DNA from: a virus
Virus record (IMG/VR): IMGVR_UViG_3300006793_000206
Location: 1 to 27,683 of that record
DNA: 27,683 nt
Direction: 5' to 3' (one strand)
Under the pieces are notes generated by a model. That model was given only the letters and a program-made list of their open reading frames with translations. It was not told the DNA's origin and made no database searches. Position numbers and translations under genes: made by a program. The stretch's first letter is position 1, and each line of letters opens with the position of its first letter. Below are positions 8,262 through 26,785 of the stretch, in pieces.

Positions 8262-8782
8262 TAATTCATGCCTCTTCTAAAATAATCACTTTCGTCTATT
8301 CTTCTTTTTGTTAAGCCTCTGCTTACTTCAAGTTCTCCTGTTTCTGGATTTCTTTCTTTATTATATTCTAGCATCTTTTCTGCTATTTCTTCATCAGTAC
8401 GTGTACCATTAGCAGTAAGTTGATTTAGTGCGCCAAAACCTAAATTATATAAGAAACTTGTAAGACCTTCTTTTTGAGTATCATTCCAATTATAATTATT
8501 TCTTTCTGAATAAGTATTTAATTTATTTATTATTTCTCTATCTAAATAACCAAGAAGTTCTTCTTGAGCTTGTTCTCTAGTTATGGTTAAATCTGTAGGA
8601 ACTTCTGCATTTCGGTCTTTTGGAAGAGGTGCTTCTGTTCCATATCCCCATGTCCATTGTGCATTATCCCATTCAGGAGTCCTAAGAAAACCTTCTTTAC
8701 TTTTTATAGCTACAGTAATTAAAGTATCGTTTTCAAATTTATCTTCTTCTGCTAGAGTAATGTCTAATCCGCTAAGTGACAT
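8261..8782 (-). CDS. GH24 (T4-type) lysozyme, endolysin or virion muramidase
   Basis: A 173-aa glycoside hydrolase family 24 enzyme that would cut the MurNAc-GlcNAc bond of peptidoglycan. The catalytic triad is readable by comparison with T4 lysozyme (E11, D20, T26): E30 in KSKEGF, D39 nine residues later, and T44 in WTWGYGT. Later family marks are ITREQAQEELLGYL, GLTSFLYNLGFGAL and GLTKRRIDESDYF. There is no signal peptide or membrane anchor, so release through the holin or packaging in the virion is needed. ATG 8782 has a good AGGA seven bases upstream. It sits between two large internal virion proteins rather than beside the holin, which favours a role in entry, as with the transglycosylase part of T7 gp16, although an endolysin role is not excluded. 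The reading frame stays open upstream through the gap to the 744-aa gene without any start codon; see the hairpin entry. Confidence 0.93.
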   Translation of the reverse strand: MSLSGLDITLAEEDKFENDTLITVAIKSKEGFLRTPEWDNAQWTWGYGTEAPLPKDRNAEVPTDLTITREQAQEELLGYLDREIINKLNTYSERNNYNWNDTQKEGLTSFLYNLGFGALNQLTANGTRTDEEIAEKMLEYNKERNPETGELEVSRGLTKRRIDESDYFRRGMN

Positions 8783-8811
8783 ATCTTCTTCCTGTTCTAC
8801 ATATGGTTGTT

Positions 8812-8862
8812 CGGAAACCTCTGCAACTTGAGGCTCAGGGGTTTCCGTTGTTACTTTTCCTC
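8812..8862 (-). promoter_or_regulatory. Stem-loop after the 744-aa gene stop; candidate -1 frameshift element
   Basis: On the minus strand the 744-aa gene ends GAG GAA AAG TAA (8862-8851). Six bases after AAG (TAACAA) begins a perfect 8-bp stem, CGGAAACC (8847-8840) with GGTTTCCG (8819-8812), plus two more pairs inside one mismatch. The loop is about 20 bases and contains the self-complementary TGAGCCTCA. No U-tract follows, so this is not a normal intrinsic terminator. A -1 slip on A-AAG would enter a frame that runs open, with no start codon, into the lysozyme gene at 8782. The slippery site is suboptimal because the P-site GAA would have to re-pair on GGA. A simpler role in mRNA stability or translational coupling is possible. 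Confidence 0.45.
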
Positions 8863-11085
8863 GTCTTCACCGCCTCCTAATTGCTTCGCAGCCAAGAACA
8901 TTGCATCCTCATAAGAAACGTCCTCGGTTTCCATAATTTGCCTGACCAAACGCGTAAGCTCTTGTTGTTTAAGTACTGATTCCCGTGAGCCACTAATTAT
9001 CCCAAGCTGTTTATTAATCCAAGGCATAACCCCTCTAAAGGTATAGCTGAGAGGTTCCGGTTCTCCAAAAACGTCCGAAGTTGGATCATAATAAGGATTA
9101 TCGTTGGGCAAACCCGTATTAACAGGTGGTGGTGGCGGTGGTGGCGGTGGTGTAGCCGATATGTTCCAATGCTCTACAAGGTTTCCCATAGATATTTTGT
9201 TATCTACTACTGTATGATTTGTAGTAGCAAGTTCATTTATTAATTTAGTTAGTGGCTCACCTGATTCTGTATCTATTAAAGTTACTTCTTGCGACATAAA
9301 CCGTTGAGAATTACCTATTAAATCTCTTGCTCTTTGTTTTTGTAATGTAGTTCTCATATCATCATCTTTATCATAAGATATTTCTTCTATAACTCCTGCA
9401 AGAATAGAACTATATTCTTTTGGTGGTATTGAAACAGATTCAACAGAAACGTCTTCTCTTTCTGCATCAGCCGCCAATAATATTGTATTTTCAAAATTTT
9501 GAAATCCTAAAAAATTTTCATTTTCAGAAAAAGCTTTATACTCAGAATTTTCCATGCCAGTAAGAATACTAAAAATATAAGCATCGGCAATTAGTTTTGT
9601 AGTTTCTTCTGTTCCTAATCCAGTTGTTACAGTTAGTTCTTTAGCTTTAACAGCTAATCGTTGATATTCAGCCGTAGCTCTTGTACCTAATTGTTCATTC
9701 CTTTTTAGTTCATCCATTACATCAGCAGTTACATCATCTCCTGCCAAATAAAAACCCATAACATTTCCTTCTAATACAGAAGGCACTTTACCAAAAAAAC
9801 CACTTGATCCTGCTGTAAACATAGTAGAAGCTTCTGTAATAGCTCCTTGCATTTGAGTTATTGAAGCTTCAGATAAAGTAGATATTTTTTGATCTAAAGA
9901 AAGTTCTTCGTCTGGAGTATGAGGTGTGAATTCTTCAAACCTTTCTACTAACTCTCCTCTCTCTCCTATTACCTTATATGTTTGCCACGTTCCCGCTTGT
10001 CCCCACATTTCCCCCTTACCTACTCTAGGTGCGCCCTCTGGTCGTGCTACTACAACCCTATCTTCTACACTAGTAACATTATCGCTTTCTGTAAGGGTGT
10101 CTTGTCCTTGTGCTGTTCGGCTCATTATATTCCAATTTCTTAAATGCTGTGGTTCTATTGTTTTCTTACCTTCTTCATCTCGTATATATTCTCCAGTATT
10201 AGGATCAATATCATATGGAGCTTCTTCAAATATAATAGGTCTTCCGTTCATTGTTCCTTTAATAACATTAAAGGGCACTTTAAGAGTTACATCAAAATAC
10301 GGAACTTCTCTTTCCTTTCTTTCAACTGATGTAATCTTTAATCCTGCGGGACGTATGTTTAAATTCTCAGGCGTTAAGTCACCGAATTTTTTTGCAGCCC
10401 GTAGACCATATCCTTGCTCTAAAGCATTTTTAAAAGCGCTAACTTTTGTAGCAGCGTCACCATACCGACTATTAATAACTGCATCTATAAGTTCATTATC
10501 AACATCTGCTTGAGTTTTTCCGGTTATAGCTCTTTCGGCTCTGTTAAAAAGCCAACCACCTGCATTACTTGCTCTACCATCTTTTGTTCTTACCCACGCA
10601 TCATAGTCTCCTAAATCTGGCATTTGTAAAGAAGCTTGATAAGCTTCTTCAAACTTAGGTAAATATTCTTCAGCCGCTTTTAAACCTTCAGCTTGGGCAT
10701 ACAAATTCATAGAATCTTCATCCCACTTAGCTTCATCAAAATTTAATTTTAAATTAGTTAATATTTCTCCTGCAAATTGTTCTGCCCAGTAACCTTTTCT
10801 TCCTCCTGCGTGTGCAGTAGATGTTTCATAGTTAGTTATAATTGCATCTCTATCTTTTAAAGTAGATTCATATCTTAATCTTTCACCTACTAAATCTTCT
10901 TGTTCATTAATAAAAGTATTAGTACGATCTTTTATTGCTTGATTAAATAGTTGTACACCTTTACCAACTACTTGAAGGGCAGCTTGATTTCTGACATCTT
11001 TTTTATATCTTTTTTCAGTTCTTTTTCTAGTTTCTCTTCCTCTAGCTAAAAGAGAGGAACCTAAATCTTCTACTTCTTTGTACAT
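8851..11085 (-). CDS. Large internal virion protein, unknown family (744 aa)
   Basis: I do not recognise a catalytic domain. The first 130 residues are highly charged and helical (LARGRETRKRTEKRYKKDV, then a likely coiled coil through about 110), followed by mixed alpha/beta sequence. A run of nine prolines at residues 646-654 separates the body from a C-terminal tail of about 90 residues rich in Y, P and E. The position, one base downstream of the 194-aa gene and directly before the lysozyme, together with the size, suggests an internal or ejection protein comparable in place, not in sequence, to T7 gp15 or gp16. It ends GGGEDEEK just before the hairpin at 8847. The base composition of the last 300 bases is somewhat richer in GC than the AT-rich middle (24 of 60 for 9061-9120). 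A frameshifted version carrying the lysozyme at its C-terminus is conceivable. Confidence 0.75.
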   Translation of the reverse strand: MYKEVEDLGSSLLARGRETRKRTEKRYKKDVRNQAALQVVGKGVQLFNQAIKDRTNTFINEQEDLVGERLRYESTLKDRDAIITNYETSTAHAGGRKGYWAEQFAGEILTNLKLNFDEAKWDEDSMNLYAQAEGLKAAEEYLPKFEEAYQASLQMPDLGDYDAWVRTKDGRASNAGGWLFNRAERAITGKTQADVDNELIDAVINSRYGDAATKVSAFKNALEQGYGLRAAKKFGDLTPENLNIRPAGLKITSVERKEREVPYFDVTLKVPFNVIKGTMNGRPIIFEEAPYDIDPNTGEYIRDEEGKKTIEPQHLRNWNIMSRTAQGQDTLTESDNVTSVEDRVVVARPEGAPRVGKGEMWGQAGTWQTYKVIGERGELVERFEEFTPHTPDEELSLDQKISTLSEASITQMQGAITEASTMFTAGSSGFFGKVPSVLEGNVMGFYLAGDDVTADVMDELKRNEQLGTRATAEYQRLAVKAKELTVTTGLGTEETTKLIADAYIFSILTGMENSEYKAFSENENFLGFQNFENTILLAADAEREDVSVESVSIPPKEYSSILAGVIEEISYDKDDDMRTTLQKQRARDLIGNSQRFMSQEVTLIDTESGEPLTKLINELATTNHTVVDNKISMGNLVEHWNISATPPPPPPPPPVNTGLPNDNPYYDPTSDVFGEPEPLSYTFRGVMPWINKQLGIISGSRESVLKQQELTRLVRQIMETEDVSYEDAMFLAAKQLGGGEDEEK
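9124..9150 (-). repeat. Nine-codon proline tract
   Basis: Nine consecutive CCT/CCA/CCG codons encode prolines 646-654 of the 744-aa protein, preceded by ISAT and followed by VNTG. Such runs stall ribosomes unless elongation factor P is present, and they often act as stiff linkers between domains. It is seen directly in the sequence; the role as linker is inference. Confidence 0.9.
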
Positions 11086-13041: not shown

Positions 13042-16000
13042 CTAATTAAACATTTCGTTAATTAAATTTTTAACACCGTCTGCAACACCCGTACTATTTA
13101 TAGCTGTATTAGCTTCATTATTCATAGCTGTAATATATAAATTTGTTTTTTGATTAGCTGTATCTAAAGATTCTTTTCTTAAAAAAGTAGCTTCATCTCT
13201 TAAAGAGTTCCAAACAAAATCTAATTCCTGTGTTGTGACACCATAAGCATTTTGTACATTTTGTGCATTAGCAGCATTAATAGCAGCAGTATCAGCAGTA
13301 TTAGCCTGTCTACGCCAGTTAGTATTAGCCTGTTCTATTGCTTGTGCATTAGAAGCGTTCCAAATATCTCTTTGGTTAGTAATGTTTTCATTAAATTGTT
13401 CTACTTGTAATTCTACTTGAGCATTAAATTTTGAAGCGTCTAATGAATTATTAGCTTCTATAGCTGCTATTCTGTTTTTTTCAGAAGCATTAAACTGTTC
13501 CATTGCATTGCTTTGTGTTGCGTTAAATTGTTCCATAGTATCTTTTTGAGATTTAAGAAACATATTAACTTGATTAGTGGACGTAGCTCCAAATTGTCTT
13601 GCTACATTTTCTGCTGCTTGATCAGATAATAATCTTTGTTGCTCCATCTGAGCATCTAATACAGAAGCTTGCTGTTCATTATTTAAATTTGTTACATCTA
13701 ATTGTAAAAAGTTTCTAGCATTTTCTATTGATAATTTAGTTCTTGAATCGGCTGCACTCAAATCTAAAGATGCCATAGACGTAGCTCTTTGCATTGCTGC
13801 TTGTTGTCTAGCATTCATATTAGTTAATGTAGTGTTTTGCATAAACTGACTATTAGCTAGTTCAACTTGTTGTGCTGTAGAAAATTTAGTTAAATCTATA
13901 TTGGCTTGTTTTGTAGCATTAGTTACTGCTCTTTGTTGATCAACTTTTAATTGAGCAACATTCATTTCAGCAGCTATTCTGCCTTGAGCCAGATTACTTT
14001 GCATTGTAGCATTTAAATCTGCCATTAAAGCTTGCTGTTCATTTGTTAATGATTCTGCATTGGCTTGATTTTGTGCGCTTAAATTAGCCAGTTCCATTTG
14101 CTGTTCATTAGAAAGATTAGCAAGCTCCATTTGTTGTTTGAACCCTGCATTTTTAGACAGAAAATCAGCAGCTACCTGCATATTTGCAAGACGCATTTGA
14201 TTATCAGCAGTCATGTTTTGCTGCTCAGTTTGGTTCTTTATTTCTAACTCAGCTAATTCTATTTGTTGAGCATTGCCTAATTCTTGAGAATTAATTTGTT
14301 GTCGGTTTTGAGATTCTAATTCTGCTGTTCTTTGACGATTTTGTAAATTTTGTAATTCTGTTTGTTGTATAAGCTGTGCGCTAGTTAAAGCCGTTTGTTG
14401 TCTTTGTTGAGTTTCAAGAACATTTATATTTTGTGCAAACTGAGCTGTTTGTGAAGAAGCTGTTTGTTGATTAGATAAATTACTTAATCGTCTAGTTGCA
14501 TTTAAACGTGCTTCTTCTAAGTTAGCCTGTTGCTCTCTATTTAAATTATTTGTTGCTCTAGTTTGTAAAGCTTGTGCGTTGCTTTGTGCCATAGGTAAAG
14601 CAGTTTGTATAATAGCATTAAACAAAGCATCTCTACCTACTGTAGAAACACCCAAACCTCTAGCGGCTAAACCTTGTTCTACTGCCGATACAGCGGGTTT
14701 TGCCCAAGTTGGAATATTTCCAGACTCCATACCACCTAATAAATTTTCCATTTGAGCCGAAACTAAAAGTTCTGGCGGTAGTGCAGCTACGGCTGCTTGA
14801 ACATCTATATCTTCAGTATCTATTCTTTCACTTACAGATGCAGCATCTTCTATTGTTTGTTCTGCTAACTCAGCAGGTATATTACCAATAGCAACCACAG
14901 CATTTGCAGCAGCTCCTTTAGCAGCTTCTCCAGTTACTTTAGCTCTTTGTCTTGCTTCATAACCTATTTGATCTATCTGTGCAGCTTCTCTAGGCGTAGC
15001 GGGTTTACCCGTAATTGCTGATCTCGTTGCAAACTCAGCTTCAGGAGACTCAGATAATACTGCTGTTTCTCCTGTTACTTTAGATATAAAACTTTTAGGG
15101 TCTATAATATAATCAACCCCTTTTGCCCTTCTAGATGCTGCCTCTTGTTCTGCTACTTGAGCAGCTACAGCAGGATCAGTTAAAGCTCTAATTTCTTCCA
15201 TTACTGCTTCTACTGGGGCACCTTTAAAAGCCGGAATTATATCTCCCAACGAACGGGCTAACTCAGCTTCGTAATCTTCGGGCGATACTGTTCCATCATT
15301 TACTGCTTCTTTTAAAGTACCAATAGTTTCTTCTATGTCTTTAGCAACAGCTTTATCCATACCACTATAATCAATACCAGAAAAAGTATTTAATTGTTGT
15401 ATAGCTTCTTCAGAAGTAGTAGTTCCTTCTCTACTAATACCTTCGGCTGTTTGTTGCTGTATTAATTTTTGTTTATCTACAGGTTTATAATTTCTTAAAT
15501 AACTTCCCGGTACATAAGTTTCTTCTTGTGCTTTAGTAACATTATTTTTATAAGATAAACCAAGAGGAACTTTGCCTTCGTGATTATAATTATAATATTG
15601 ATTCTGTGCTTGAGCTACTGTTAATCCTGTTGCTGCTGCAAACTCTTCTATAGAAAAATTAACCTGCCCAGTTCCTTGAGCAAGTTTTACAAACTCTGCT
15701 CTTGCTTGTTCTTGTGCCGCTATATACTCAGGAGTGTCCGGTGTTAATCCTCTTGCTTTAAGTTGTTCATCTAATGCTAAAATTTGAGACTTTAAACTTT
15801 CTGTATCAAAATTAACAGGTTTATTTTTAAACCCTGTATCTTTTATTGTTTCTTTTATAGCTTCTTGTGATTTAGCAGCTTCTTGTTTACCTACAAGTTC
15901 TTTAGTAGCATCCTTTACTCCTTCCGAAAAGGGGTCTGTACCAGTTACTTCTTCACCTGCTGCCTTTTGATTTTGACGATCTAATTCTGCCTGTACTTGT

Positions 16001-16848
16001 GCTTCTGTTGCTCCAAAAGTATCAGCAACTTCTTTTACTGTCATTGCTCCACTATTAATAGCTTCTACAACTTGTTCAGTTTCAAATTCTGTATAAGACC
16101 CGTCAACTGGAATATCAGCTACGTCAGCGGCAGTTGTTGTAGTAGCAGTAAAATCATCACGGGGGAAACTTATAAAACCATCATCGGGGTCTATAGCAGT
16201 ACCAGTAGTCGTAGTATCAGTAGTTGTAGTGTCAGTAGTTGCCGTCTCAGCAGCAGCAGCTTGAGTATTTATAGCTTTTAAATTTTGATTTACATAGTCT
16301 TCTGAAACGCCATACTGTGCCGCTAATTGTGCAGCAGTTATTTTTCCTGAATTAAGATCGGCAACTGCTTGGTCTATGTCTGCCTGAGTATAAGCAGGTG
16401 TTGTAGTTGTAGTAGTATTTTCGGCTTCAACAGCATCAGGATTAAAAGTTTCTTGAACGCCAATTGGTTTTACAGTGTTATCAAACATAGCAACTCTGTT
16501 TAAATCTGCTCCTGCTGCATTATAAACTGAACCAGTAGTTCTATTAGCATCAGCAGTAGGATCGGTACTTGTTGTGTTTACACCACCACCAGAATTAATA
16601 TCATCCCACGGACTATATTCTTTAGGAGCACCTCTGTCATAAACAGGCGCACCCCTGTCTACAGGAGGCCCAGAGTACATATTTCTTTCTTGCCCTAAAG
16701 CTAAACTTGCTTTATTTTTAGCTTTATCATACATTCCTCCAACCATCCTTGTAATATCATTTGGGTTCCAACCCTGTTCAGCATGAACTCTACCACCTTT
16801 ACGGTAGTCTGCTCTTTTCTTTTGCGCTCTTGCTCTTTTTCCGGCCAT
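13042..16848 (-). CDS. Very long coiled-coil, Q/N/A-rich virion structural protein (1268 aa)
   Basis: The N-terminus is basic with a KGG tag (KKRADYRKGGRVHAEQG). Residues about 85-300 are Thr-rich linkers (several TTTT runs) carrying two helix-turn-helix-like units at about 153-195 and 252-292 (YTQADIDQAV...AAQYGVS and YTEFETEQVV...ADTFGAT); a related EEFAAATGLT unit lies near 396. From about 740 to 1180 the sequence is an almost unbroken Q/N/A-rich coiled coil with recurring MELANLS, NEQQ and EQFNA units of roughly 11 residues. Marine phage proteins of this outline occur in virions, and I infer an elongated internal or tail-associated role. No enzyme motif is seen. It begins nine bases after the holin stop and leads the block of internal proteins. 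Confidence 0.8.
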   Translation of the reverse strand: MAGKRARAQKKRADYRKGGRVHAEQGWNPNDITRMVGGMYDKAKNKASLALGQERNMYSGPPVDRGAPVYDRGAPKEYSPWDDINSGGGVNTTSTDPTADANRTTGSVYNAAGADLNRVAMFDNTVKPIGVQETFNPDAVEAENTTTTTTPAYTQADIDQAVADLNSGKITAAQLAAQYGVSEDYVNQNLKAINTQAAAAETATTDTTTTDTTTTGTAIDPDDGFISFPRDDFTATTTTAADVADIPVDGSYTEFETEQVVEAINSGAMTVKEVADTFGATEAQVQAELDRQNQKAAGEEVTGTDPFSEGVKDATKELVGKQEAAKSQEAIKETIKDTGFKNKPVNFDTESLKSQILALDEQLKARGLTPDTPEYIAAQEQARAEFVKLAQGTGQVNFSIEEFAAATGLTVAQAQNQYYNYNHEGKVPLGLSYKNNVTKAQEETYVPGSYLRNYKPVDKQKLIQQQTAEGISREGTTTSEEAIQQLNTFSGIDYSGMDKAVAKDIEETIGTLKEAVNDGTVSPEDYEAELARSLGDIIPAFKGAPVEAVMEEIRALTDPAVAAQVAEQEAASRRAKGVDYIIDPKSFISKVTGETAVLSESPEAEFATRSAITGKPATPREAAQIDQIGYEARQRAKVTGEAAKGAAANAVVAIGNIPAELAEQTIEDAASVSERIDTEDIDVQAAVAALPPELLVSAQMENLLGGMESGNIPTWAKPAVSAVEQGLAARGLGVSTVGRDALFNAIIQTALPMAQSNAQALQTRATNNLNREQQANLEEARLNATRRLSNLSNQQTASSQTAQFAQNINVLETQQRQQTALTSAQLIQQTELQNLQNRQRTAELESQNRQQINSQELGNAQQIELAELEIKNQTEQQNMTADNQMRLANMQVAADFLSKNAGFKQQMELANLSNEQQMELANLSAQNQANAESLTNEQQALMADLNATMQSNLAQGRIAAEMNVAQLKVDQQRAVTNATKQANIDLTKFSTAQQVELANSQFMQNTTLTNMNARQQAAMQRATSMASLDLSAADSRTKLSIENARNFLQLDVTNLNNEQQASVLDAQMEQQRLLSDQAAENVARQFGATSTNQVNMFLKSQKDTMEQFNATQSNAMEQFNASEKNRIAAIEANNSLDASKFNAQVELQVEQFNENITNQRDIWNASNAQAIEQANTNWRRQANTADTAAINAANAQNVQNAYGVTTQELDFVWNSLRDEATFLRKESLDTANQKTNLYITAMNNEANTAINSTGVADGVKNLINEMFN

Positions 16849-17844: not shown

Positions 17845-18240
17845 TTATCCTAAATTATCTAATTGGTCGTGAGTAGTACAAGCATTAATAGCGGTAATGT
17901 TTTGATCTTTAGCATCTTTAGCATCACTTACTAATGCGGCATCACCAGAACCATCCTCAGTTTCAAGGCGCGTTTGATCATTAGCGACTTCCTGATATGC
18001 ACCTTTAGCCTTACTAATAAGATTTGATTTACGCTGATCTACAGTTAAATTATTTACACCGTAAACAATCTGTACCGGATCAGTAGTAAGATCAAACGTA
18101 TGTCCAGTATAAATTTGCTTGCCATCAGTAATTTCAGGACGCACTTCAATAGCTGCATACCAATTAGCCTCACCTGCGGGAGGTTGTGTATCCCAAACTT
18201 CTCTTACTTCTTCATTTACTACTTTTACAAATAATGACAT
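17845..18240 (-). CDS. Tail-fibre-assembly-like small protein (131 aa)
   Basis: The N-terminal part (residues 1-60: VKVVNEEVREVWDTQPPAGE, WYAAIEVRPEI, GHTFDLTTDPVQIVYG) is beta-rich and is followed by a helical part beginning LTVDQRKSNLISKAKGAYQEV. A short beta segment about returned or expected values followed by helices resembles small phage proteins encoded next to fibres (DUF4376 or fibre chaperone-like). It lies 11 bases after the 424-aa RCC1 protein, as a fibre chaperone would. I have no motif that proves this; it could also be a minor virion protein. Confidence 0.6.
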   Translation of the reverse strand: MSLFVKVVNEEVREVWDTQPPAGEANWYAAIEVRPEITDGKQIYTGHTFDLTTDPVQIVYGVNNLTVDQRKSNLISKAKGAYQEVANDQTRLETEDGSGDAALVSDAKDAKDQNITAINACTTHDQLDNLG

Positions 18241-18251
18241 AATATTTTCCT

Positions 18252-19526
18252 CTATCCTTCTCTCAAATATAATGAATGAATACCTTGTGAATCTCCAGGC
18301 CCACTACTAAGCCAGTTAGTTGCTGTACCTACTTGTACTGGAGAGCTTCTATTAGTACCTGCACCAATACCTAATATTCCTTCATCGTTATAACCCCAAC
18401 CCCACAAAGTGCCGTCTGATTTAATCGCACCTGAATTTCTGTGTCGCGTGAATACTTTTCTCCAAGTTGTTAAAGAACCTATTTGTACTGGAGAACTTCT
18501 ATTAGTGGTAGAACCATCACCTACTACTCCGTAACCGTTATTTCCCCAAGCCCACATAGTGCCATCAGTTTTAACGGCAAGACTATTTCTATCTCCTGCC
18601 GCTACAAATTTCCAATTAGTAAGTGAACCTATTTGTACTAAAGAACTTCTATCAGTAGTAGAACCATCTCCTAATTGTCCATCATCGTTGTGACCTACTG
18701 CCCATAAAGTACCGTCTTCTTTTACTGCTATTGTATGAGAATAACCACAAGCAACAGTTACCCAAGTTGTTACTGATCCAATTTGAACTGGAGAACTTCT
18801 AGCAGTAGTAGAGCCGTCACCCAGTTGTCCATTGTCTTGTTTTCCCCAAGCCCATAAAGTTCCATCAGTTTTAATTGAGTGCATAAACTTGTAACCGCCA
18901 CCAACAGCTAATTCTCGCCAATTAGTTAATGATCCAACCTGAACGGGTGAAGAATAAATAGTAGTATTATTCATACCTAATTGACCTTGACTACCTCTAC
19001 CCATACTCCACAATGTACCATCATTCATAATCATATGTGATGTGCCATTTCCACAAGATATTTGAGCATTACCATCGCCTGATGGTCCTACATCAGAACC
19101 CCAAGTAGTTAATGCACCCACTTGATTTGGGGAAACAAGCTGAGTAGTGTTATCTTGTCCTAATTGACCAGTAGAATTATAACCCCATGACCATAATGTA
19201 CCGTCTGTTTTTGTTGCTATAGAATGTGCCCCACCCAAAGCAACTTGCGCCCAATCAGTTAATGAACCTATTTGCATAGGAGAAGTATGAGCTTGTGTTT
19301 CACCATCTCCACCAGTAGCACCTAATCCTAATTGTCCATTAGCATTGCGGCCAAAACCCCATAACTGTCTTTTTTTATTCGGCTTAGGCCAATTACCTGC
19401 TTTTTCATGAACCATTACTTCATCTAATGACCACACACCAGAAGCACTGCCTCCCTCTCCATCAGTAGGTGCAGTAATAGTAGGAGCAGTTTTATTTACA
19501 ATTCCTCCCGGCCACTCCTTGCTCAT
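18252..19526 (-). CDS. RCC1-repeat tail fibre or adhesin, paralogue 1 (424 aa)
   Basis: Residues 1-50 carry a short attachment-like module (GGIVNKTAPTITAPTDGEG, then SGVWSLDEVM...NWP) of the type seen at the start of marine phage fibre proteins. From residue 54 to the end I count seven RCC1 units of about 50 residues (TLWxWGxNxxGQLGxG, then SSPVQ[IV]GSLTxW, then a variable loop, then AVKTDG), which should close into a seven-bladed beta propeller. The variable loops between W and TDG would line one face and are candidates for receptor contact. It is a paralogue of the 403-aa protein at 21317-22528. The ATG overlaps the stop of the sulfotransferase-glycosyltransferase gene by four bases (ATGA), so the two are co-translated. 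The receptor is unknown. Confidence 0.9.
   Translation of the reverse strand: MSKEWPGGIVNKTAPTITAPTDGEGGSASGVWSLDEVMVHEKAGNWPKPNKKRQLWGFGRNANGQLGLGATGGDGETQAHTSPMQIGSLTDWAQVALGGAHSIATKTDGTLWSWGYNSTGQLGQDNTTQLVSPNQVGALTTWGSDVGPSGDGNAQISCGNGTSHMIMNDGTLWSMGRGSQGQLGMNNTTIYSSPVQVGSLTNWRELAVGGGYKFMHSIKTDGTLWAWGKQDNGQLGDGSTTARSSPVQIGSVTTWVTVACGYSHTIAVKEDGTLWAVGHNDDGQLGDGSTTDRSSLVQIGSLTNWKFVAAGDRNSLAVKTDGTMWAWGNNGYGVVGDGSTTNRSSPVQIGSLTTWRKVFTRHRNSGAIKSDGTLWGWGYNDEGILGIGAGTNRSSPVQVGTATNWLSSGPGDSQGIHSLYLREG
18258..19367 (-). repeat. Seven RCC1-coding repeats, about 150 bp each
   Basis: Seven imperfect tandem units of roughly 150 bp; the recurring cores encode GTLWAWG and SSPVQIGSLT. Units 4 to 6 are the most alike (DGSTT.RSSPVQIGS). 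They are matched by a second array at 21320-22366 in the paralogous gene, so the two are substrates for recombination. Confidence 0.9.
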
Positions 19527-21292
19527 GCAATTCTCCGTAATATTTGTTTATTTTTTGTAAGTTTTTCTTTAATTAAATTAAAAGGATCTTCCCAATTACC
19601 AAATTCTTTTTGTCGTATTAGTTTCATTGAATCATAATAAGGACAAGTATCTCCTTCTTGTGCATATAAGAAGTAAGGCATAACAGGTATTACTGTCCAA
19701 GTTTCTACACCCATTGCGGCTGCTAAATGGCTTACTGAAGTACAAGATGAAATAACCAAATCACATGAGGCAGTAGCTTGTCGTGTATCTTCCCAAGTAT
19801 CTAAAGGAACTTGTTTAACCCACGATGGACAATCTTCTACACCCTCATCTTTTTGTAAAGAAATAAACTCTGCATCTGCATCTTTTACAGCATCAAATAA
19901 AAGATCATAAGGAAATTTCTTTTGATGTTCTTTTTCAAATACAGTTTGTCCTTGCCATCGTAAACCAATTCGGGTTTTAAAACCTCTAATACTTTTAGGT
20001 TTAGTAATATAAGGTATACCAGAAAGGTCTTTTAATTCTAATCCTAGTGGAACAACGGCTGACATTCCGTGTACTAAAAAGTCATGGTAAACCCCGTGAC
20101 ACATCTCATGTTGAACAACAGAACTCACGCCCTCAACATCTACAAATAAAGATGCAAGCTGTCCAGAACAAGATACGATTACTTTACAACCTTTTTCGGC
20201 AATAGACTTAGCATATCGTACTTGATGTATTTGATCGCCTAGTCCACCTTCTAAATATAATAAAACTGTACCTTTTGATTTTCCGTCCCAACAAGGTGAT
20301 TGTGAAGTAACAGTATTACCAAATACTCCTATTAAACGTCCTCTATCCATTAACTGATAACCCTTTTGAATTTCTCCTTGACGTAATAAATACCATCCAC
20401 GATTAAAAGCAGCTCTATGATTATTAGGCTCATTTTTTTCTATTTGTTGACTTAACCGCCAACCCTCTGCAAAGTGGCCTCTTTTTGAAGCAGCTAACTG
20501 AAGGTCTAGGTCATGTATTTCAGGGGTTGTACGAGGGTTTTTAAGCCAAAACTCAGGCTGACAAAACGAATTGTAATAATGCTTTAGTACATCTTTGGGG
20601 TCTTCGTTGTGCTGCTTTCCAAGCACAGGCTGAATATTGTGCATACCTTCATAGTGATGTAGCTCTTCATCATCTTCCTGAACGCTAGTCCCATCAATCG
20701 CTGTAAAGTCATAATTAAAATCAGGCAACTCCAAAAATTTATGGATGCGTTTAAGTTGAGCTTTTGGATTAGCTATAAGGTCTTCATATTCAACTATGCA
20801 AAAACATTCAGGTGCAAACTCATAACCAGTTTGTAAAGTTAAATATGCTGCTTTTAAATGAGTACTTAGTATTCCAGATTCCATAAATTTATCAAGATTA
20901 TCTGGTTTAGCTACTCTAACAAATGATGCCATACAATCAGGTATTGATCTAACAGTAGCTACAATTTTAGGTAGTCTACCTAATACTTGGCTCATAGACT
21001 GCATAATAACAGGAATGGGCCAACCTCTGCCTTTATCTATAATAACAGGGTTTTTATAATCTTCATAAAACGTATTAATTATAGCATTCATTGTTTTAGC
21101 TAACTTGGTCTTATCTTTATCTGTATTATTTAATAGCTGTTGTGAGTGCCAAGTATTAGCTAACCCGTCTAAAGCAAATACTAACCCTGACGTTGTAGAA
21201 ACATGAGTCTGTTTGTTTTGGTTAAGTATAGCCGCCAGTACCGTAGAACCGGAGCGAGGCACACCTGACATAAAATGTATTTGTTTTTTCAT
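19523..21292 (-). CDS. Sulfotransferase-TPR-GT9-like glycosyltransferase fusion (589 aa)
   Basis: Residues 1-250 form a PAPS-dependent sulfotransferase domain: the 5'-phosphosulfate loop GVPRSGST at 10-17, the 3'-phosphate motif VRSIPDCMAS at 114-123, and VEYEDLIANP at 168-177. Residues about 263-318 are a TPR-like helical hairpin (LAASKRGHFAEGWRL, AAFNRGWYLLRQGEIQKGY). Residues about 340-589 resemble the TPR-linked ADP-heptose-type GT9 (GT-B) fold: LEGGLGDQIHQVRYA at 347-361, RIGLRWQG, FISLQK, DTWEDTRQATASCDLVISS and TSVSHLAAAMG at 518-528. The protein is cytosolic with no signal peptide. It sits between two RCC1 fibre paralogues and overlaps the second by four bases, so it may glycosylate and sulfate the fibre or alter host surface glycans. 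Which substrate is used, and whether both active sites work, cannot be told from sequence. Confidence 0.9.
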   Translation of the reverse strand: MKKQIHFMSGVPRSGSTVLAAILNQNKQTHVSTTSGLVFALDGLANTWHSQQLLNNTDKDKTKLAKTMNAIINTFYEDYKNPVIIDKGRGWPIPVIMQSMSQVLGRLPKIVATVRSIPDCMASFVRVAKPDNLDKFMESGILSTHLKAAYLTLQTGYEFAPECFCIVEYEDLIANPKAQLKRIHKFLELPDFNYDFTAIDGTSVQEDDEELHHYEGMHNIQPVLGKQHNEDPKDVLKHYYNSFCQPEFWLKNPRTTPEIHDLDLQLAASKRGHFAEGWRLSQQIEKNEPNNHRAAFNRGWYLLRQGEIQKGYQLMDRGRLIGVFGNTVTSQSPCWDGKSKGTVLLYLEGGLGDQIHQVRYAKSIAEKGCKVIVSCSGQLASLFVDVEGVSSVVQHEMCHGVYHDFLVHGMSAVVPLGLELKDLSGIPYITKPKSIRGFKTRIGLRWQGQTVFEKEHQKKFPYDLLFDAVKDADAEFISLQKDEGVEDCPSWVKQVPLDTWEDTRQATASCDLVISSCTSVSHLAAAMGVETWTVIPVMPYFLYAQEGDTCPYYDSMKLIRQKEFGNWEDPFNLIKEKLTKNKQILRRIA

Positions 21293-21316
21293 ATTATTAA
21301 CTCTGAGTACAACTAA

Positions 21317-22528
21317 TTAAACTGTTTTAGTAACAAGTGCGTGTTCTGATTCTGGTTGCCCTGCCAACTTACTCCAAGTAGTAAGCGCCCCAACTTGCAC
21401 AGGAGAACTATAGCTAGTCGTATTTCCTTGACCTAATTGACCACGATTATTATAACCCCAAGCCCAAAGAGTACCGCCTGTTGTAAGCCCCATACTACTG
21501 TGTTTTGCACCTCTAAATCTGCTCCATGTGGTTAAAGAACCTATTTGTACTGGAGAACTTCTATTAGTAGTACTTCCGTCACCTACTTGGCCGTAATTGT
21601 TCCTGCCCCAAGTCCAAAGCGTCCCGTCTGTCTTAACAACTCCACAATGATACTGTCCTGCACTTACTAATTGACCCCATGTAGTTAGCGAACCAATTTG
21701 AACAGGAGAAGATCGGTCAGTAGTGCTTCCATCACCTAATTGTCCATAGTTATTTCTACCCCAAGCCCAAAGCGTTCCGTCAGTTTTAATAGCAAAACTA
21801 CTTTGTGTACCATCTCCTAACTGTGACCAAGTAGTAAGCGCACCTATTTGTACGGGAGATGAAGTGTGGGTAGTATTTCCTTGACCTAACTGACCTTGAG
21901 TATTTTTACCCCAAGCCCTAAGCGTTCCGTCAGTTTTAATGGCTGTAACAAAATATAACCCACAAGACACTTTTAACCAAGTAGTTAAAGCGCCTACTTG
22001 TACGGGGGAAGAATAGTAAGTGGTGTTATTTAAACCTAATTGGCCTAGTCCGTTAGCCCCCCAAGCCCAAAGCGTTCCGTTAGTTTTAATAGCAAGAGTA
22101 GAATTACGCATCTGAGTAACTGTTGCCCAATCAGTGCCTACTTGGACAGGAGAACTTTTATTAGCAGTAGTGCCATCTCCTAAACCTCCACTAGCACCTG
22201 CTCCCCAAGTCCAAAGCGTCCCGTCAGTTTTAATAGCCGCTGAAATATATTGACCTCCGGCACTGGCTTTCCAATTAGTAAGTTCGCCTACCTGAACAGG
22301 TGAAGAATAGTCAGTGGTATCACCTTGACCTAACTGACCATTTTGATTTCTACCCCAAGCCCATTGCTCTCTGGGTGGTACAAGTTTAGGCCAAGTGCTT
22401 CCTCCTTCTTCTTGAGTAACGTCTGTCATATACCAAACGCCAGATGTTGAACCGCCTTCACCATCAGTAGGACTATTTATTGTAGGAGGTGTGGCTGAAA
22501 CTACACCGCCTTTAAATCTTGAACCCAT
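21317..22528 (-). CDS. RCC1-repeat tail fibre or adhesin, paralogue 2 (403 aa)
   Basis: Same design as the 424-aa paralogue: N-terminal module with GGVVSATPPTINSPTDGEGG and SGVWYMTDV...TWP, then seven RCC1 units from residue 55 to the C-terminus, expected to make a seven-bladed propeller. In unit 4 the usual TLW is TLR. The N-terminal modules of the two paralogues share the GGS.SGVW pattern, suggesting docking on the same virion site or on each other, while loop residues after each SLTxW differ. The ATG has AGGA seven bases upstream and follows the 123-aa protein by ten bases. A role in host recognition is inference from position and architecture; RCC1 units are also known in other marine phage fibres. 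Confidence 0.9.
   Translation of the reverse strand: MGSRFKGGVVSATPPTINSPTDGEGGSTSGVWYMTDVTQEEGGSTWPKLVPPREQWAWGRNQNGQLGQGDTTDYSSPVQVGELTNWKASAGGQYISAAIKTDGTLWTWGAGASGGLGDGTTANKSSPVQVGTDWATVTQMRNSTLAIKTNGTLWAWGANGLGQLGLNNTTYYSSPVQVGALTTWLKVSCGLYFVTAIKTDGTLRAWGKNTQGQLGQGNTTHTSSPVQIGALTTWSQLGDGTQSSFAIKTDGTLWAWGRNNYGQLGDGSTTDRSSPVQIGSLTTWGQLVSAGQYHCGVVKTDGTLWTWGRNNYGQVGDGSTTNRSSPVQIGSLTTWSRFRGAKHSSMGLTTGGTLWAWGYNNRGQLGQGNTTSYSSPVQVGALTTWSKLAGQPESEHALVTKTV
21320..22366 (-). repeat. Seven RCC1-coding repeats in paralogue 2
   Basis: Seven imperfect tandem units of about 145-150 bp. A near-identical core (plus-strand ccccaagcccaaagcgt and close variants) recurs at about 21457, 21607, 21759, 21909, 22059 and 22203, more uniform at DNA level than the array in the other paralogue. 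This suggests recent expansion or gene conversion. Confidence 0.85.
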
Positions 22529-22538
22529 AAGTTATTCC

Positions 22539-22910
22539 TTACGAAATTTCTTCATAACTAATAGTGGCTACTAAATCACTAGCTGCGCTTGCAATGCCGC
22601 CTAATGATTTATCTTCTTCTAAATAAATAGCAGTTGCTTTATCAAGTACAATAAGAGCAGAATCAGCAGGTACAGATATTGTAGAAGCAATAGCTACTCC
22701 TGTTCCACCTATATCATCCTGTGGATATAAATTAACTGTAATATCCGCAGCAGCACTACCATCTATATTGGTAATCATAAGCATATTAACTTTTAATACT
22801 TTACTGCTACTTGCGGCATTTGATAAGATTTCTGTAGCAGACGTACCAACAGCTACTTGCGCTGTTTTTGCGGTAATCGTTGCTACATTTACTACATTAG
22901 GGGCTGACAT
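22539..22910 (-). CDS. Small beta-rich virion protein (123 aa)
   Basis: An almost all-beta protein: SAPNVVNVATITAKTAQVAVG, then KVLKVNMLMITNIDG, AADITVNLYP, ISVPADSALIVLDKATAIYLEED and a final VATISYEEIS. The alternating pattern and the VPADS...LDK...YLEE order recall a small structural protein found in many marine phages of different tail types, always close to fibres or tail proteins. It may decorate the capsid or connect fibres. The start ATG has AGGAG nine bases upstream, a stronger ribosome site than those of the large genes, fitting a protein needed in many copies. No signal peptide and no enzymatic motif are seen. Confidence 0.78.
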   Translation of the reverse strand: MSAPNVVNVATITAKTAQVAVGTSATEILSNAASSSKVLKVNMLMITNIDGSAAADITVNLYPQDDIGGTGVAIASTISVPADSALIVLDKATAIYLEEDKSLGGIASAASDLVATISYEEIS

Positions 22911-22925
22911 TTATAAGTTCTCCTT

Positions 22926-25175
22926 TTAACCAAAGACCATAGCCATAGCAATAGCTTTGCCTGTTGATGCTTTAGTGTCTAACTGCGTTTGTATCGCAGA
23001 AGTAACACCGTCTGAATAATTAAGTTCTGCTGCGGTTGCTGTAACATTAGTACCTCCAATATCAAGAGTAGTCATTGAGACTTCTCCGGCTACTGTTAGT
23101 ACTCCACTAGCTACTGTCATTAAATCCGTATCACCAGTATGTCCAATAGTAGAACCATTTATAATAACATTATCAACTGTTAGAGTTGTTAAAGTTCCTA
23201 AACTAGTAATATTAGATTGTGCTGCTCCTGTTACTGTAGCTGCTGTTCCAGACGCATTGCCTGTTACATTGCCTGTTAATGGCCCTGCAAAAGCATCTGC
23301 TGTAACTGTACCATCAAAGAAAGCGTCTTTAAATTCATTATCAGATTTACCAAGATCAATAATATTATCAGAACCCGGATAAAGCGCACCATCTTCTAAA
23401 ATTAATTGTTTCTCATTTCCTGCATAAAAGTTAATTTTATCAGCATCTTCAAAATCTATTTTAGTTTGATCATCTTCACCAATTTTTATATCTGTTGCAA
23501 GTAAAGAAGTAATTCCTGTTTGTGCTGCGTCTACTGTAAATGTTAAATCATAGGGATCGCCATCTGTGCCGTTATCTGTATCAGTCCAGTTTGTTGTAAT
23601 ACCTGATCCAATAAACTTTACTTCTTTAGCGTTAGAAACAGTTACTTCAGTACCATCATCATCTTCAAGAATAAAGTTACTCATTGTACCTGAACCAGAT
23701 GTTTGACTGTCTACATAAGCTTTTACAGATTGCTGTGTAGGCACAAGAGTCGCACTATCTGAAGACATATTATCTTCATCAACCCAAGCAGTAACTCCTA
23801 TTGTTCCATCAGAAAGTGTTCCAAAAGTTATTGTACCAGATGCCGTAACACCAGTACTTGATAGTAATCCAGTAGAAGGATTATAAATTAAATCACCATC
23901 AGATTCTAAACCTAAGTTGCCACCATCAAGATCACCACCTGCTGTAAAAATAATAGCATTGTTTTCATTTGTGCTTTCATTGTCTGTTATAGTTACTGTC
24001 GTTGCTATAGCAGCGGTTCCAGTTGTGTCTTGGTTCAGTGTTCCAACTGTAAAGTCTAATGTATTATCACCATCTTGATATGCTACAGTTATACCCGATT
24101 CTGTATTTGAACCAACCATAGCACCGACAGTATCAGCAATATATTCGTTTAGAGCTGTACCATCAACTGTAATTGCATCTGCTTCAAGTGTACCATCTAT
24201 ATCGGCATTACCTGAAATATCAAGTGATCCTGCATCTAGTTCTCCTGAAATTGTCAGAAGACCACTAGAAGGATTATATGTTAAGCCTGTGTCGCTTTCT
24301 GCTCCTTGACTTCCAGTAGCACCATCTACAAAGATTGGATAAACTGTCTCGTCTGTAGAGTTATTAGCTGATACTGTAAAATTATCTGCTGTACCTGTAG
24401 TATCTTGGTTGAGAGTACCTATTACAAAATCTAGAGTATTATCTCCGTCTTCATAGGTAACTGTAATATTTGTCTCTGTATTAGAGCCAACCATAGCTCC
24501 TACTGTATCTGCTATATATTCATTTAAGGCTGTTCCATCTACCGTATAAGCATCTGCTTCTAAAGTTCCATCAATATCTGCATTACCTGAAATATCTAAA
24601 GTAGTTGCGTCTAGTTCACCCGCTATTGTTACAACACCATCAGCAAGTGTAATTAAATCAGTATCATCTGTATGTCCTATTGTTGTACCATTTATATTTA
24701 CATTATCTATAACTGCTTGAGTAATTGCACTATTTGTTCCTAGCGTTGCTCCATCTACTGAGCCACCATTAATATCTGCTGTATCTGCAACCAGAGCATC
24801 TGTTGTTACTGTGCCATCAAAGTAAGCATCTTTAAATTCTAAGGAGCTTGTGCCTAAATCAATATCATTATCTGTAACAGGTACGATAGCTCCGTCTTGA
24901 ATACGAATTTGTTCTACAGCAGAGCTAGAAACTTCTACAAAGAAACCCCAACGGTTGTTTGTACTATCAGCTACAATTTTATTTAAAAAATCTTGATCAC
25001 CTATTGTATGTATATTACCGCCTTCTGCGGCTGTACCATCGTGTTGATGACCTGTAGTACTACTAGCAGCATATGAAAAAGCAGTTAGAAGTCTATTAAA
25101 TTCATCATTAAATAAAGCAGCAGTTATCGTATCTCCATCTGCCATTGAGCTTTGTCTTACATAACTTGTACCCAT
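22926..25175 (-). CDS. Long repetitive tail fibre, T7-type N-terminus (749 aa)
   Basis: The N-terminal 60 residues (MADGDTITAALFNDEFNRLLTAF, then GHQHDGTAAEGG) resemble the virion-attachment start of marine podovirus fibres. The remainder is a chain of Asp/Thr/Gly-rich beta repeats (DIDLGTSSLEFKDAYFDGTV, later DIIDLGKSDNEFKDAFFDGTV-like, and NGTTIGHTDDTDLIT and its copy near the end), consistent with a trimeric beta-helical shaft. A 79-residue block is duplicated. The C-terminus ends TGKAIAMAMVFG, a motif I have seen repeatedly at marine phage fibre ends. Gaps of two and fifteen bases join it to its neighbours. Binding the host or holding the RCC1 adhesins is inferred. Confidence 0.85.
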   Translation of the reverse strand: MGTSYVRQSSMADGDTITAALFNDEFNRLLTAFSYAASSTTGHQHDGTAAEGGNIHTIGDQDFLNKIVADSTNNRWGFFVEVSSSAVEQIRIQDGAIVPVTDNDIDLGTSSLEFKDAYFDGTVTTDALVADTADINGGSVDGATLGTNSAITQAVIDNVNINGTTIGHTDDTDLITLADGVVTIAGELDATTLDISGNADIDGTLEADAYTVDGTALNEYIADTVGAMVGSNTETNITVTYEDGDNTLDFVIGTLNQDTTGTADNFTVSANNSTDETVYPIFVDGATGSQGAESDTGLTYNPSSGLLTISGELDAGSLDISGNADIDGTLEADAITVDGTALNEYIADTVGAMVGSNTESGITVAYQDGDNTLDFTVGTLNQDTTGTAAIATTVTITDNESTNENNAIIFTAGGDLDGGNLGLESDGDLIYNPSTGLLSSTGVTASGTITFGTLSDGTIGVTAWVDEDNMSSDSATLVPTQQSVKAYVDSQTSGSGTMSNFILEDDDGTEVTVSNAKEVKFIGSGITTNWTDTDNGTDGDPYDLTFTVDAAQTGITSLLATDIKIGEDDQTKIDFEDADKINFYAGNEKQLILEDGALYPGSDNIIDLGKSDNEFKDAFFDGTVTADAFAGPLTGNVTGNASGTAATVTGAAQSNITSLGTLTTLTVDNVIINGSTIGHTGDTDLMTVASGVLTVAGEVSMTTLDIGGTNVTATAAELNYSDGVTSAIQTQLDTKASTGKAIAMAMVFG
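24009..24620 (-). repeat. Two copies of a 237-bp fibre-shaft block
   Basis: Copy 1 is 24620-24384 and copy 2 is 24245-24009, both exactly 237 bp and in frame. They encode GELDA..LDISGNADIDGT and on to GTLNQDTTGTA with few differences. The 138 bp between them encode a distinct spacer segment. The number of copies sets shaft length, so this is a likely place for expansion or contraction. Confidence 0.88.
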
Positions 25176-25177
25176 TG

Positions 25178-26785
25178 CTATCTCCTACCGGATGGTCTAT
25201 AATCTACATAAAAACCATTTATTGAATAAGGTGCTTTAGTATCTTGACTAAATATTTTAAAGGCTATATTGTGTCCACTTCCCTGTACTGCTTGTCTTGC
25301 CATAGGGTCTTGAGAAGCTCCAAATACTGATGTATTAAAAGTTCCTGAACCAAATACTGCGGGAGTTGGTATTGAATCTAGTTCATAATTTGGAGGCTGT
25401 GGTCTATTCGTATCATCAAAATCATATGTTATCTTTAATGTAGGTTCTATTGTACCTTCAGGTGTAAAAGATATTTTTGTATAATGTAATGTTTTAAGTG
25501 TACCTGCATCTCCAAAATCTAAGTTAGGTGTTTTATATCTGGCATCTATATTTGTTTGTGTTCCTGCCGGATTAAAATCATTTCCTGTGTTATGGTTATA
25601 AACATATCCATCTTTATCACCATGATATATTTTTTCTACACTATCGTTATTAAAACCTGATGTAAATCCATGTGCTTGAATGCCTATTGTTTCAGACCAT
25701 TCAAACCCATTAGGAGTTATTGTACCTATCAAACCTTTTGATGTAGATGTAGAACCTGAACTTGCACTATAAAATAATCTGTATTGAGATTTACTTCTTA
25801 ATACTGCACTACTAATAGTAAATGTATCTATAGAAGCTGCTATTTTTGATACTATAGATTGTATGTTTCTAGATACAGAGCTTAACTCTACGTCACCAAT
25901 ACGTGCTGTACCTGCAACTAAACGAAATCCATCAGGACTTAAAAATAAAAGATCGCCTCCTATTTCTTGAATACTATGTCCATCCAAACAACCTACGTTT
26001 TGTGTAATAGGTGTTACAGCTATAGAAGCAGAAATATTTATGTCTGATAATTTATAAATACTATTTTTACAGAATATAATTAAATCACCACGGAAACTTT
26101 TTATTCCTACTACCTGATCATCTAGTACAATACTTCCAGAGCCGCTTGAAGTAAAATCATTTATGTCACTTGTGCCGCTATAAAATATTGTATTAAGTGC
26201 GGTAGCTGCTCCGGCAACTACTAAGTGTTTATCGTGAATAGTACAAAATTTTGGATAGTGCGTACCGCTAACTGTAATTTCTTCATAAAAGAAAGTTCTA
26301 TCTGTTAAAGCTCCTGTACCTGTCATTTTAAATAAAGCAGGTTTTACACCAGAACCTTTATCGGTAATTACTACTTCACCATAAGTACTAGACCCTTCAA
26401 ACAAAGCAAAAGAAGCTTGTGCTTGGCTTGTTCTAGCCGCTGTGCTTCTTCCTGTAAATGTAGAGTAATTATCTCCTGAACCACTTACGCTTGAACGATT
26501 TATTTGTAACCAACTTGTTCCATCTAAACTAAAATAAATATTAGTCCCTGAACAAGCAATTACGCCATCGCCATAAACAAAAAGCCCTAATATAGCATTA
26601 GAGCTGTTAGGTCTTGCTGCACTACCCCCACCGTAAAGTGTGTAACCATTTATTCTTCTGTAACCACCATCAGGATCAACTTCAAAGTTTTCTAACTCTG
26701 TAGCAAATCCGGGTTGTTGTAACATTTGAAACTGGTTGAGATTAGTGTTTAAACCCCCTTGACAAGATAAACCAAATGCTTGCAT
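25178..26785 (-). CDS. Tail nozzle / tail tubular protein B-like (535 aa)
   Basis: Follows the adaptor by two bases, as gp12 follows gp11 in T7. The N-terminus has GGLNTNLNQFQML, then LENFEVDPDGGYRRINGY, the opening pattern of this nozzle family in marine podoviruses. The body is made of beta-propeller-like repeats (LFVYGDGVIACSGTNIYFS, KSFRGDLIIFCKNSIYKLS, GGDLLFLSPDGFRLVAG). Nozzle proteins of T7-like phages form a hexameric tube below the adaptor and contact the fibres. No membrane span or enzymatic motif is seen. Sequence similarity to T7 gp12 itself is too low to judge by eye; the call rests on family memory and gene order. Confidence 0.82.
   Translation of the reverse strand: MQAFGLSCQGGLNTNLNQFQMLQQPGFATELENFEVDPDGGYRRINGYTLYGGGSAARPNSSNAILGLFVYGDGVIACSGTNIYFSLDGTSWLQINRSSVSGSGDNYSTFTGRSTAARTSQAQASFALFEGSSTYGEVVITDKGSGVKPALFKMTGTGALTDRTFFYEEITVSGTHYPKFCTIHDKHLVVAGAATALNTIFYSGTSDINDFTSSGSGSIVLDDQVVGIKSFRGDLIIFCKNSIYKLSDINISASIAVTPITQNVGCLDGHSIQEIGGDLLFLSPDGFRLVAGTARIGDVELSSVSRNIQSIVSKIAASIDTFTISSAVLRSKSQYRLFYSASSGSTSTSKGLIGTITPNGFEWSETIGIQAHGFTSGFNNDSVEKIYHGDKDGYVYNHNTGNDFNPAGTQTNIDARYKTPNLDFGDAGTLKTLHYTKISFTPEGTIEPTLKITYDFDDTNRPQPPNYELDSIPTPAVFGSGTFNTSVFGASQDPMARQAVQGSGHNIAFKIFSQDTKAPYSINGFYVDYRPSGRR

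Follow-up and report, generated by a model that had tools for sequence, protein, structure and literature searches.

A predicted sulfotransferase–glycosyltransferase fusion accompanies RCC1 adhesins in a cassette shared between phage lineages

Based on gene order, protein families, predicted structures and homologues, we propose that the phage DNA analysed here carries a shared host-recognition cassette whose fusion enzyme would glycosylate and sulfate RCC1 adhesins during virion assembly, a reading to which we give a probability of roughly 0.6. The window, that is the whole stretch of 27,683 nucleotides that was analysed (positions 1 to 27,683 of IMG/VR record IMGVR_UViG_3300006793_000206), holds the cassette in its late region, between the tail genes and the holin and on the same strand. 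Judging by the flanking fibre-like and tail proteins, this is the receptor-binding locus in a podophage of HMO-2011 type. The features are as follows.

22926..26785, minus strand: context, a fibre-like protein (749 aa, p749) and a tail protein (535 aa), the flanking tail genes
22539..22910, minus strand: p123, a small structural-type protein, first in the cassette
21317..22528, minus strand: upstream RCC1 gene (403 aa, 7 repeats, anchor-like N-terminal segment; Pfam RCC1)
19523..21292, minus strand: sulfotransferase–TPR–glycosyltransferase fusion gene, ST-GT (589 aa; Pfam, AlphaFold model and homologues)
20519..21292, minus strand: sulfotransferase domain of ST-GT, residues 1-258 (Sulfotransfer_3; TPST1 structure match)
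21242..21259, minus strand: 5'-phosphosulfate-binding loop PRSGST, residues 12-17 (conservation in homologues)
20327..20515, minus strand: TPR helical hairpin, residues 260-322 (structure match)
19529..20272, minus strand: GT9-fold glycosyltransferase domain, residues 341-588 (structure match; invariant D353 and K458)
19523..19526, minus strand: ATGA stop/start overlap from ST-GT to the downstream RCC1 gene (sequence)
18252..19526, minus strand: downstream RCC1 gene (424 aa, 7 repeats, anchor-like N-terminus; Pfam RCC1)
17845..18240, minus strand: p131, a cassette-specific, predicted tail-fibre assembly chaperone-like protein

The first-pass annotation had described a sulfotransferase–TPR–GT9-like fusion wedged between two seven-repeat RCC1 genes and overlapping one of them, an arrangement borne out by open reading frames, Pfam and structure comparison. 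The upstream and downstream RCC1 proteins match Pfam with E-values of 6.6e-68 and 9.5e-58, respectively, with seven repeats in each, and these paralogues share 53% identity. The stop codon of ST-GT shares its ATGA with the start ATG of the downstream RCC1 gene. Within the fusion, Sulfotransfer_3 is recognized over residues 7-190 (E 8.3e-15; 56.1 bits against a Pfam gathering cut-off of 27), and NCBIfam gives only a sub-threshold NoeE match to the sulfotransferase. The TPR matches Pfam below the curated cut-off only, and the glycosyltransferase half has no Pfam match. In structure comparisons with the AlphaFold model of the protein (pLDDT 79), residues 1-258 resemble TPST1 (Z 17.4), residues 260-322 superpose on a TPR protein to 1.4 A over 63 residues, and residues 341-584 match the GT9 enzymes WaaC (Z 16.6), WaaF (1psw; 15.9), 3tov (15.7) and TibC (15.6). 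As the model matches known folds, the glycosyltransferase and TPR parts are confirmed.

Residues P12-T17, R115 and S123 of the sulfotransferase half are invariant in 41 homologues, and P12, R13, R115 and S123 are also invariant in 11 distant sulfotransferases. The same invariance across the 41 is seen for D353 and K458 of the glycosyltransferase half, which we take to be the counterparts, mapped by eye, of the WaaC catalytic Asp D13 and Lys K192; D353 is invariant in distant relatives too. Catalytic-motif loss in homologues, which the first-pass annotation had named as evidence against a cassette, is not seen among these 41 sequences. Family match and PAPS-site residues together make the sulfotransferase half a well-supported, predicted PAPS-dependent sulfotransferase. 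What do the folds reveal about substrates? The position of the TPST catalytic Glu (presumably E99 of TPST2) aligns with Thr34, which is invariant in the ST-GT family, and Cys517, which phage and bacterial relatives all keep, sits by eye at what we take to be the WaaC donor-site Asp D261. Because Thr34 and Cys517 replace these two residues, the fold identifies neither the acceptor nor the donor. Membership among TPST-type enzymes of tyrosine sulfation was rejected on account of Thr34; likewise, the heptosyltransferase label was rejected on account of Cys517, and the domain was filed as GT9-fold.

The search for such fusions beside RCC1 genes that the first-pass annotation had suggested recovered about 100 distinct homologues in IMG/VR, and a fusion that recurs in so many distinct sequences is not a product of chance. 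Of 101 loci that could be read to either side, 99 have an RCC1 gene within 200 bp; counted by side, that distance includes one in 103/112 loci upstream and in 84/113 downstream. Fusions at 42-56% identity have an RCC1 neighbour as well. The order p123 - RCC1(0-2) - ST-GT - RCC1(0-2) - p131 is conserved, and ATGA ends 62 of 103 distinct ST-GT genes, coupling them to RCC1 or p131. The idea of a self-contained cassette is strongly supported by this order and by an RCC1 linkage that holds almost without exception down to 42% identity; ST-GT homologues at unrelated loci without RCC1 were looked for, and the linkage proved near-total. Beyond the fusions, distantly related TPR-GT genes that stand alone closely follow RCC1 genes in BUCT-ZZ01, S-SRM01 and AG-345-E08, and a sulfotransferase also follows RCC1 in the latter two. 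A TPR-GT relative in phage ctDrO704 has no RCC1 within 7 kb, and a bacterial relative (locus L146) comprises unfused sulfotransferase and TPR-GT genes in a cysDNC and glycosyltransferase locus without RCC1.

Three parts of the cassette had escaped the earlier reading: p123, the chaperone-like p131 and an APS-kinase-like gene found in most relatives. Two cultured pelagiphages have a p123 homologue at the same locus, HTVC033P with E 1.2e-31 and HTVC104P with a weak match, and p123 is also the first gene of other adhesin loci that have no sulfotransferase. Where 3.5 kb or more is available upstream of p131, all 48 loci contain both the sulfotransferase and RCC1. The p131 model (pLDDT 95.8) has BFVD neighbours that include DUF4376 / 'Phage tail assembly chaperone' entries, one of them from S-SRM01 (E 1e-4 to 1e-3, TM about 0.5-0.6), and p131 yielded no Pfam or PHROG profile match and no PDB-fold match. 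By its model, p131 is predicted to resemble tail-assembly-chaperone proteins.

In 32 phage pairs whose TerL proteins share <30% identity, ST-GT is 64-86% identical. For loci L001 and L007, DNA homology of the compared stretches is limited to the cassette, and the outer flanks are unrelated. The fibre-like p749 is replaced in most relatives. Judged from these sequences, the cassette crosses phage lineages as a horizontally shared module, and its locus and the hypervariable columns of its adhesins point to host binding. The RCC1 blades display these columns (>3.2 bits) on a fixed frame, many columns of which are <0.6 bits. Mass spectrometry has detected RCC1-like proteins in GAP32 and phAPEC6 virions (PMC5259590, PMC7247149). 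A search for a conserved modification site in RCC1 yielded none; the conserved loop rich in Ser/Thr, GNTT.YSSP, seems to belong to the common RCC1 frame and is therefore no evidence for or against modification.

What might such a cassette accomplish? RCC1 propeller adhesins would be made together with chaperone-like p131 and a single cytoplasmic enzyme with two activities. Its GT9-fold half would add a sugar, and the sulfotransferase half would use PAPS to sulfate that sugar or a nearby hydroxyl. The RCC1 tail adhesins would then bear a sulfated glycan at virion assembly. Enzymatic activity, RCC1 proteins as acceptor, the kind of sugar and the benefit are all inferred here; the benefit might lie in attachment to certain surfaces, in a stable or soluble fibre, or in escape from decoys or from recognition by the host. 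Of the two functions raised in the first-pass annotation, decoration of the adhesin is favoured and masking of the host receptor is less favoured.

If cytoplasmic, ST-GT could equally act on host envelope glycan precursors. Its target late in infection would then be the receptor, whether LPS, capsule or a surface polymer. Once sulfated and glycosylated, the receptor would no longer let debris soak up progeny or allow rival phages to adsorb, and RCC1 would be linked via the same receptor. We consider this unlikely, though it is the main rival of adhesin decoration. GT9 enzymes, the structural match of the glycosyltransferase half, are mostly LPS heptosyltransferases, and the bacterial relative at L146 lies in a PAPS and glycan locus. 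In addition, glycosyltransferases of the pelagimyophage host-recognition cluster were assigned by the authors to O-chain change against co-infection (PMC7029224). However, ST-GT resides in the late structural block, is coupled to adhesin and chaperone-like genes and has no noted membrane or export feature. Moreover, its glycosyltransferase follows a single adhesin fold, RCC1, through unrelated phages, which receptor masking need not do.

An improbable alternative is that the enzyme acts on another virion protein (e.g. p749, p123 or the capsid) or on a small metabolite, and that its adjacency to RCC1 reflects a locus of variable cargo. The marine phage receptor-binding locus is indeed a known hypervariable region that collects many genes (PMC7029224). 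Nevertheless, loose cargo would hardly keep the p123 - RCC1 - ST-GT - RCC1 - p131 order nearly fully in about 100 loci with unrelated outer flanks, and p749 is not a constant companion of the enzyme.

Where would the PAPS for adhesin sulfation come from? APS kinase makes PAPS, the donor consumed by a sulfotransferase. In 81/104 loci an APS-kinase-like gene lies within 1.5 kb after p131, and the commonest arrangement is an overlap of 4 nt. APS kinases head its PDB profile matches (E 1e-14), it scores above the Pfam cut-off in 34/46 contigs and below NCBIfam cut-offs, and the motifs considered were Walker A and D..R / GFSxxDRxEQxRR. Among p123 loci, the gene is present in 7/13 with a sulfotransferase versus 0/26 without (p = 1e-4). 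In a second cassette and the closest viral relatives, the kinase follows a stand-alone sulfotransferase with the same kind of overlap. No APS-kinase-like gene was found in the window's own record; PAPS would come from the same-operon gene in most relatives and from the host for the window's phage. Most more-distant viral relatives of the kinase have no sulfotransferase nearby, and among 54 viral cysC-like loci flanked by 3 kb or more to either side, 43 show no Sulfotransfer_3-type sulfotransferase, while a looser motif scan picks up a sulfotransferase in only a few more; on these counts a role in sulfation for every viral cysC gene was rejected. The published reading of viral cysC is virus-driven sulfur assimilation (PMC9529941, PMC10914622), and it agrees with those distant relatives, but as an account of the cassette kinase as an auxiliary metabolic gene beside an incidental sulfotransferase it is very improbable given the close, often overlapping position after p131, the similar coupling to stand-alone sulfotransferases and a product, PAPS, that the sulfotransferase consumes.

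What are the implications of adhesin decoration? The cassette provides a testable alternative for part of viral cysC, namely PAPS used to sulfate either the attachment machinery or the receptor it binds, and suggests that adhesins moving between unrelated phages can bring a post-translational modification system with them. More tentatively, at somewhat less than an even chance, it may be a transferable system for sulfoglycosylated receptor-binding proteins, in which a single operon encodes the adhesin, its chaperone, a bifunctional glycosyl-/sulfotransferase and a PAPS supply of its own. We know of no earlier case of sulfated phage adhesins; if the proposal is true, these would be the first, and viral cysC beside a sulfotransferase would be counted under virion modification instead of sulfur assimilation. 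What phage sulfotransferases do has been called unclear (PMC10580990). No description of the ST-GT fusion was found in the open-access papers searched, and within these the novelty claimed by the first-pass annotation holds.

Compared with known systems, the sulfotransferase domain has its best structural match in TPST1/2 and shares the PAPS-binding loop PRSG[ST]T, but with Thr34 at the catalytic Glu the likeness is one of fold and PAPS loop. TibC, a heptosyltransferase that shares the GT9 fold, glycosylates TibA, an autotransporter adhesin of E. coli; ST-GT differs in its fusion to a sulfotransferase and TPR, in the donor-site Asp to Cys change, in its phage tail locus and in a substrate that is presumed. 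The host-recognition module of Alteromonas phages A5, V22 and P24 (tail fibre and chaperone) is likewise a block moved between distantly related phages; unlike the present cassette it has no RCC1 adhesin, and the passages covered of its description mention neither a sulfotransferase nor a GT9-fold enzyme or an APS kinase among the module's genes (PMC10579305). In cyanophage S-SRM01 and Marine virus AG-345-E08 the sulfotransferase, TPR-GT and RCC1 families also meet in the tail-fibre region, but there the genes are unfused, share about 26-31% identity or less and are interspersed with 2OG-Fe(II) oxygenases and others.

Most genes of the 27.7-kb virus record lie on the minus strand and form a single late block, whose order in reading direction is as follows.

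Minus strand: tail protein, 256 aa
Minus strand: 'amidase'/tail protein, 535 aa
Minus strand: fibre-like protein, 749 aa
Minus strand: p123, small structural-type protein heading the cassette
Minus strand: RCC1 gene
19523-21292, minus strand: ST-GT, 589-aa sulfotransferase/TPR/GT9-fold fusion
Minus strand: RCC1 gene
Minus strand: p131
Minus strand: small ORF
Minus strand: holin
13042-16848, minus strand: 1268-aa protein rich in Gln/Asn, of no clear family

A 2463-aa protein (870-8261) has a PHROG match to endolysin/virion-structural proteins. Counterparts of the 535-aa protein share 33-44% identity with it in HMO-2011-type podophages (SAR11 and SAR116 hosts) and ~32% in Roseobacter phages. In those isolates other fibre genes fill the locus 3' of a p123-like gene, and the cassette therefore sits in the receptor-binding locus of an HMO-2011-type podophage.

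Both genes flanking ST-GT carry seven RCC1 repeats by Pfam, which also recognises the sulfotransferase (ST) of the fusion (E 8.3e-15); a Pfam search with the glycosyltransferase (GT) half gave no match. In the AlphaFold model (pLDDT 79; 41 homologues as input), residues 1-258 match the tyrosylprotein sulfotransferase TPST1 (Z 17.4), residues 260-322 form a TPR hairpin (1.4 A across 63 residues) and residues 341-588 adopt a GT9 fold resembling the heptosyltransferases WaaC (Z 16.6) and TibC (Z 15.6). The PAPS loop P12-T17, R115 and S123 on the ST side and D353 and K458 on the GT side are retained in 41/41 homologues; P12, R13, R115 and S123 are invariant across eleven sulfotransferases with identities down to 20-30%. 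An SCTS..H signature containing Cys517 is conserved among phage and bacterial relatives. Mapped by eye, Thr34 occupies the position of the TPST catalytic Glu and Cys517 that of the WaaC donor-site Asp; because of these replacements the finer labels TPST and heptosyltransferase were rejected. Very probably ST-GT is catalytically active, uses PAPS and has a half that works as a glycosyltransferase.

A first scan of IMG/VR yielded 80 full or partial ST-GT homologues, and an alignment scan reported 344 relatives. RCC1 lies within 200 bp of ST-GT in 99 of the 101 loci readable on both sides, in one to four copies per locus; these counts are of loci, near-duplicate contigs included, rather than of independent lineages. 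Upstream p123 and downstream p131 are kept at nearly all loci where the contig extends that far, and fusions only 42-56% identical (MAG-labelled contigs) also have an RCC1 neighbour. Wherever the contig extends 3.5 kb or more upstream of a p131 homologue, both ST-GT and RCC1 are present (48/48); p123 is less specific, with an ST in 13 of 39 control loci. Among distant unfused relatives, TPR-GT genes lie close 3' of RCC1 in BUCT-ZZ01, S-SRM01 and AG-345-E08, and an ST follows RCC1 in the latter two; the exceptions are phage ctDrO704 and the bacterial MAG contig L146. The latter (1981-9640) carries cysD, cysN, cysC, an ST (270 aa), a GT2-like gene, a TPR-GT (343 aa; GT part 40% identical) and a methyltransferase, uniting unfused relatives of both halves in a single PAPS and glycan locus. 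In S-SRM01 (L084:3146-16906) and AG-345-E08 (L083), long arrays 3' of the tail fibre alternate RCC1 genes with TPR-GT, ST, 2OG-Fe(II) oxygenase (annotated in S-SRM01) and other GT genes, and hydroxylation may precede glycosylation there. The TPR-GT beside RCC1 in BUCT-ZZ01 (L082:7857-9569) seems, weakly, fused to a C-terminal methyltransferase-like domain, and in S-SKS1, AG-345-O18 and AG-345-L05 repeat proteins of kelch-like appearance, judged by eye, are found near an ST.

An APS-kinase-like gene follows p131 within 1.5 kb in 81/104 loci, most commonly with a 4-nt overlap. Pfam APS_kinase scored above cut-off in 34/46 contigs tested (28/39 ST-GT contigs other than the window; 6/6 with a second cassette); the same scan found no such gene in the window or its 53-kb sister contig G001. 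APS kinases top a PDB profile search (E 1e-14), and NCBIfam scores fall under cut-off. In the p123 control set the gene occurs in 7/13 loci with an ST versus 0/26 without (p = 1e-4). Its closest viral relatives lie, with a short overlap, 3' of stand-alone STs in the second cassette (L237, L245, L256, L316-L320), ordered p123, two or three Lcl_C lectin-like adhesins, a 144-aa protein, ST and APS-kinase-like gene. Since 43/54 more distant viral relatives have no recognised ST, we restrict the PAPS-supply claim to the ST-linked group. A ~260-280-aa form (L033:8156-8938, L245:7358-8149) has a C-terminal NMN-adenylyltransferase-like domain; L372 and L374 appear to encode kinase-like and adenylyltransferase-like parts in separate adjacent genes. 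Published work (PMC9529941, PMC10914622) assigns viral cysC to assimilatory sulfate reduction. Among the open-access papers searched we found none joining viral cysC with a sulfotransferase, or describing an ST-GT fusion.

The RCC1 proteins are the predicted adhesins. Mass spectrometry of virions has identified RCC1-like proteins in GAP32 and phAPEC6 (PMC5259590, PMC7247149). Across 876 equally long RCC1 blades, the frame columns hardly vary and columns 5, 7, 8, 33, 38, 39 and 40 reach at least 3.2 bits; the finding pattern itself fixes some frame columns and none of these seven. The RCC1 genes share an N-terminal segment (..GG.IS.T.PT...SGVWTL.Q....AG.WP) with proteins after p123 in other phages whose C-terminal domains differ, as would be expected of a fibre anchor that carries exchangeable heads. 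The p131 model is of high confidence (pLDDT 95.8), and its likeness to DUF4376/'tail assembly chaperone' proteins among structural neighbours in viral models is suggestive only. What does the enzyme modify? We favour the RCC1 adhesins as acceptor, at a probability of about 0.6, because the operon is late and coupled, the partner p131 is chaperone-like, the GT keeps company with a single adhesin fold even in unrelated phages, and protein-modifying enzymes are among the nearest folds. The main rival, that ST-GT alters the host surface, we consider less likely.

The cassette is almost certainly real, conserved and horizontally shared. Among terminase (TerL) genes from 14 contigs, numerous pairs lack BLAST similarity, yet their ST-GTs are 64-87% identical (87% in L031/L070); by global alignment TerL identity is below 30% in 32/66 pairs, whose ST-GTs share 64-86% (median 73). 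Between L001 and L007, DNA similarity of the fetched stretch is confined to RCC1-ST-GT-RCC1 and p131. In L031 and L070 the DNA is close for ST and p131 but not for the RCC1 genes, so the adhesins change faster than the enzyme. Directly 3' of p123, within the cassette region, L272 and L278 carry ORFs resembling GIY-YIG homing endonucleases by eye, which might aid cassette movement. A precedent for such transfer of modules is the Alteromonas A5/V22 system (PMC10579305).
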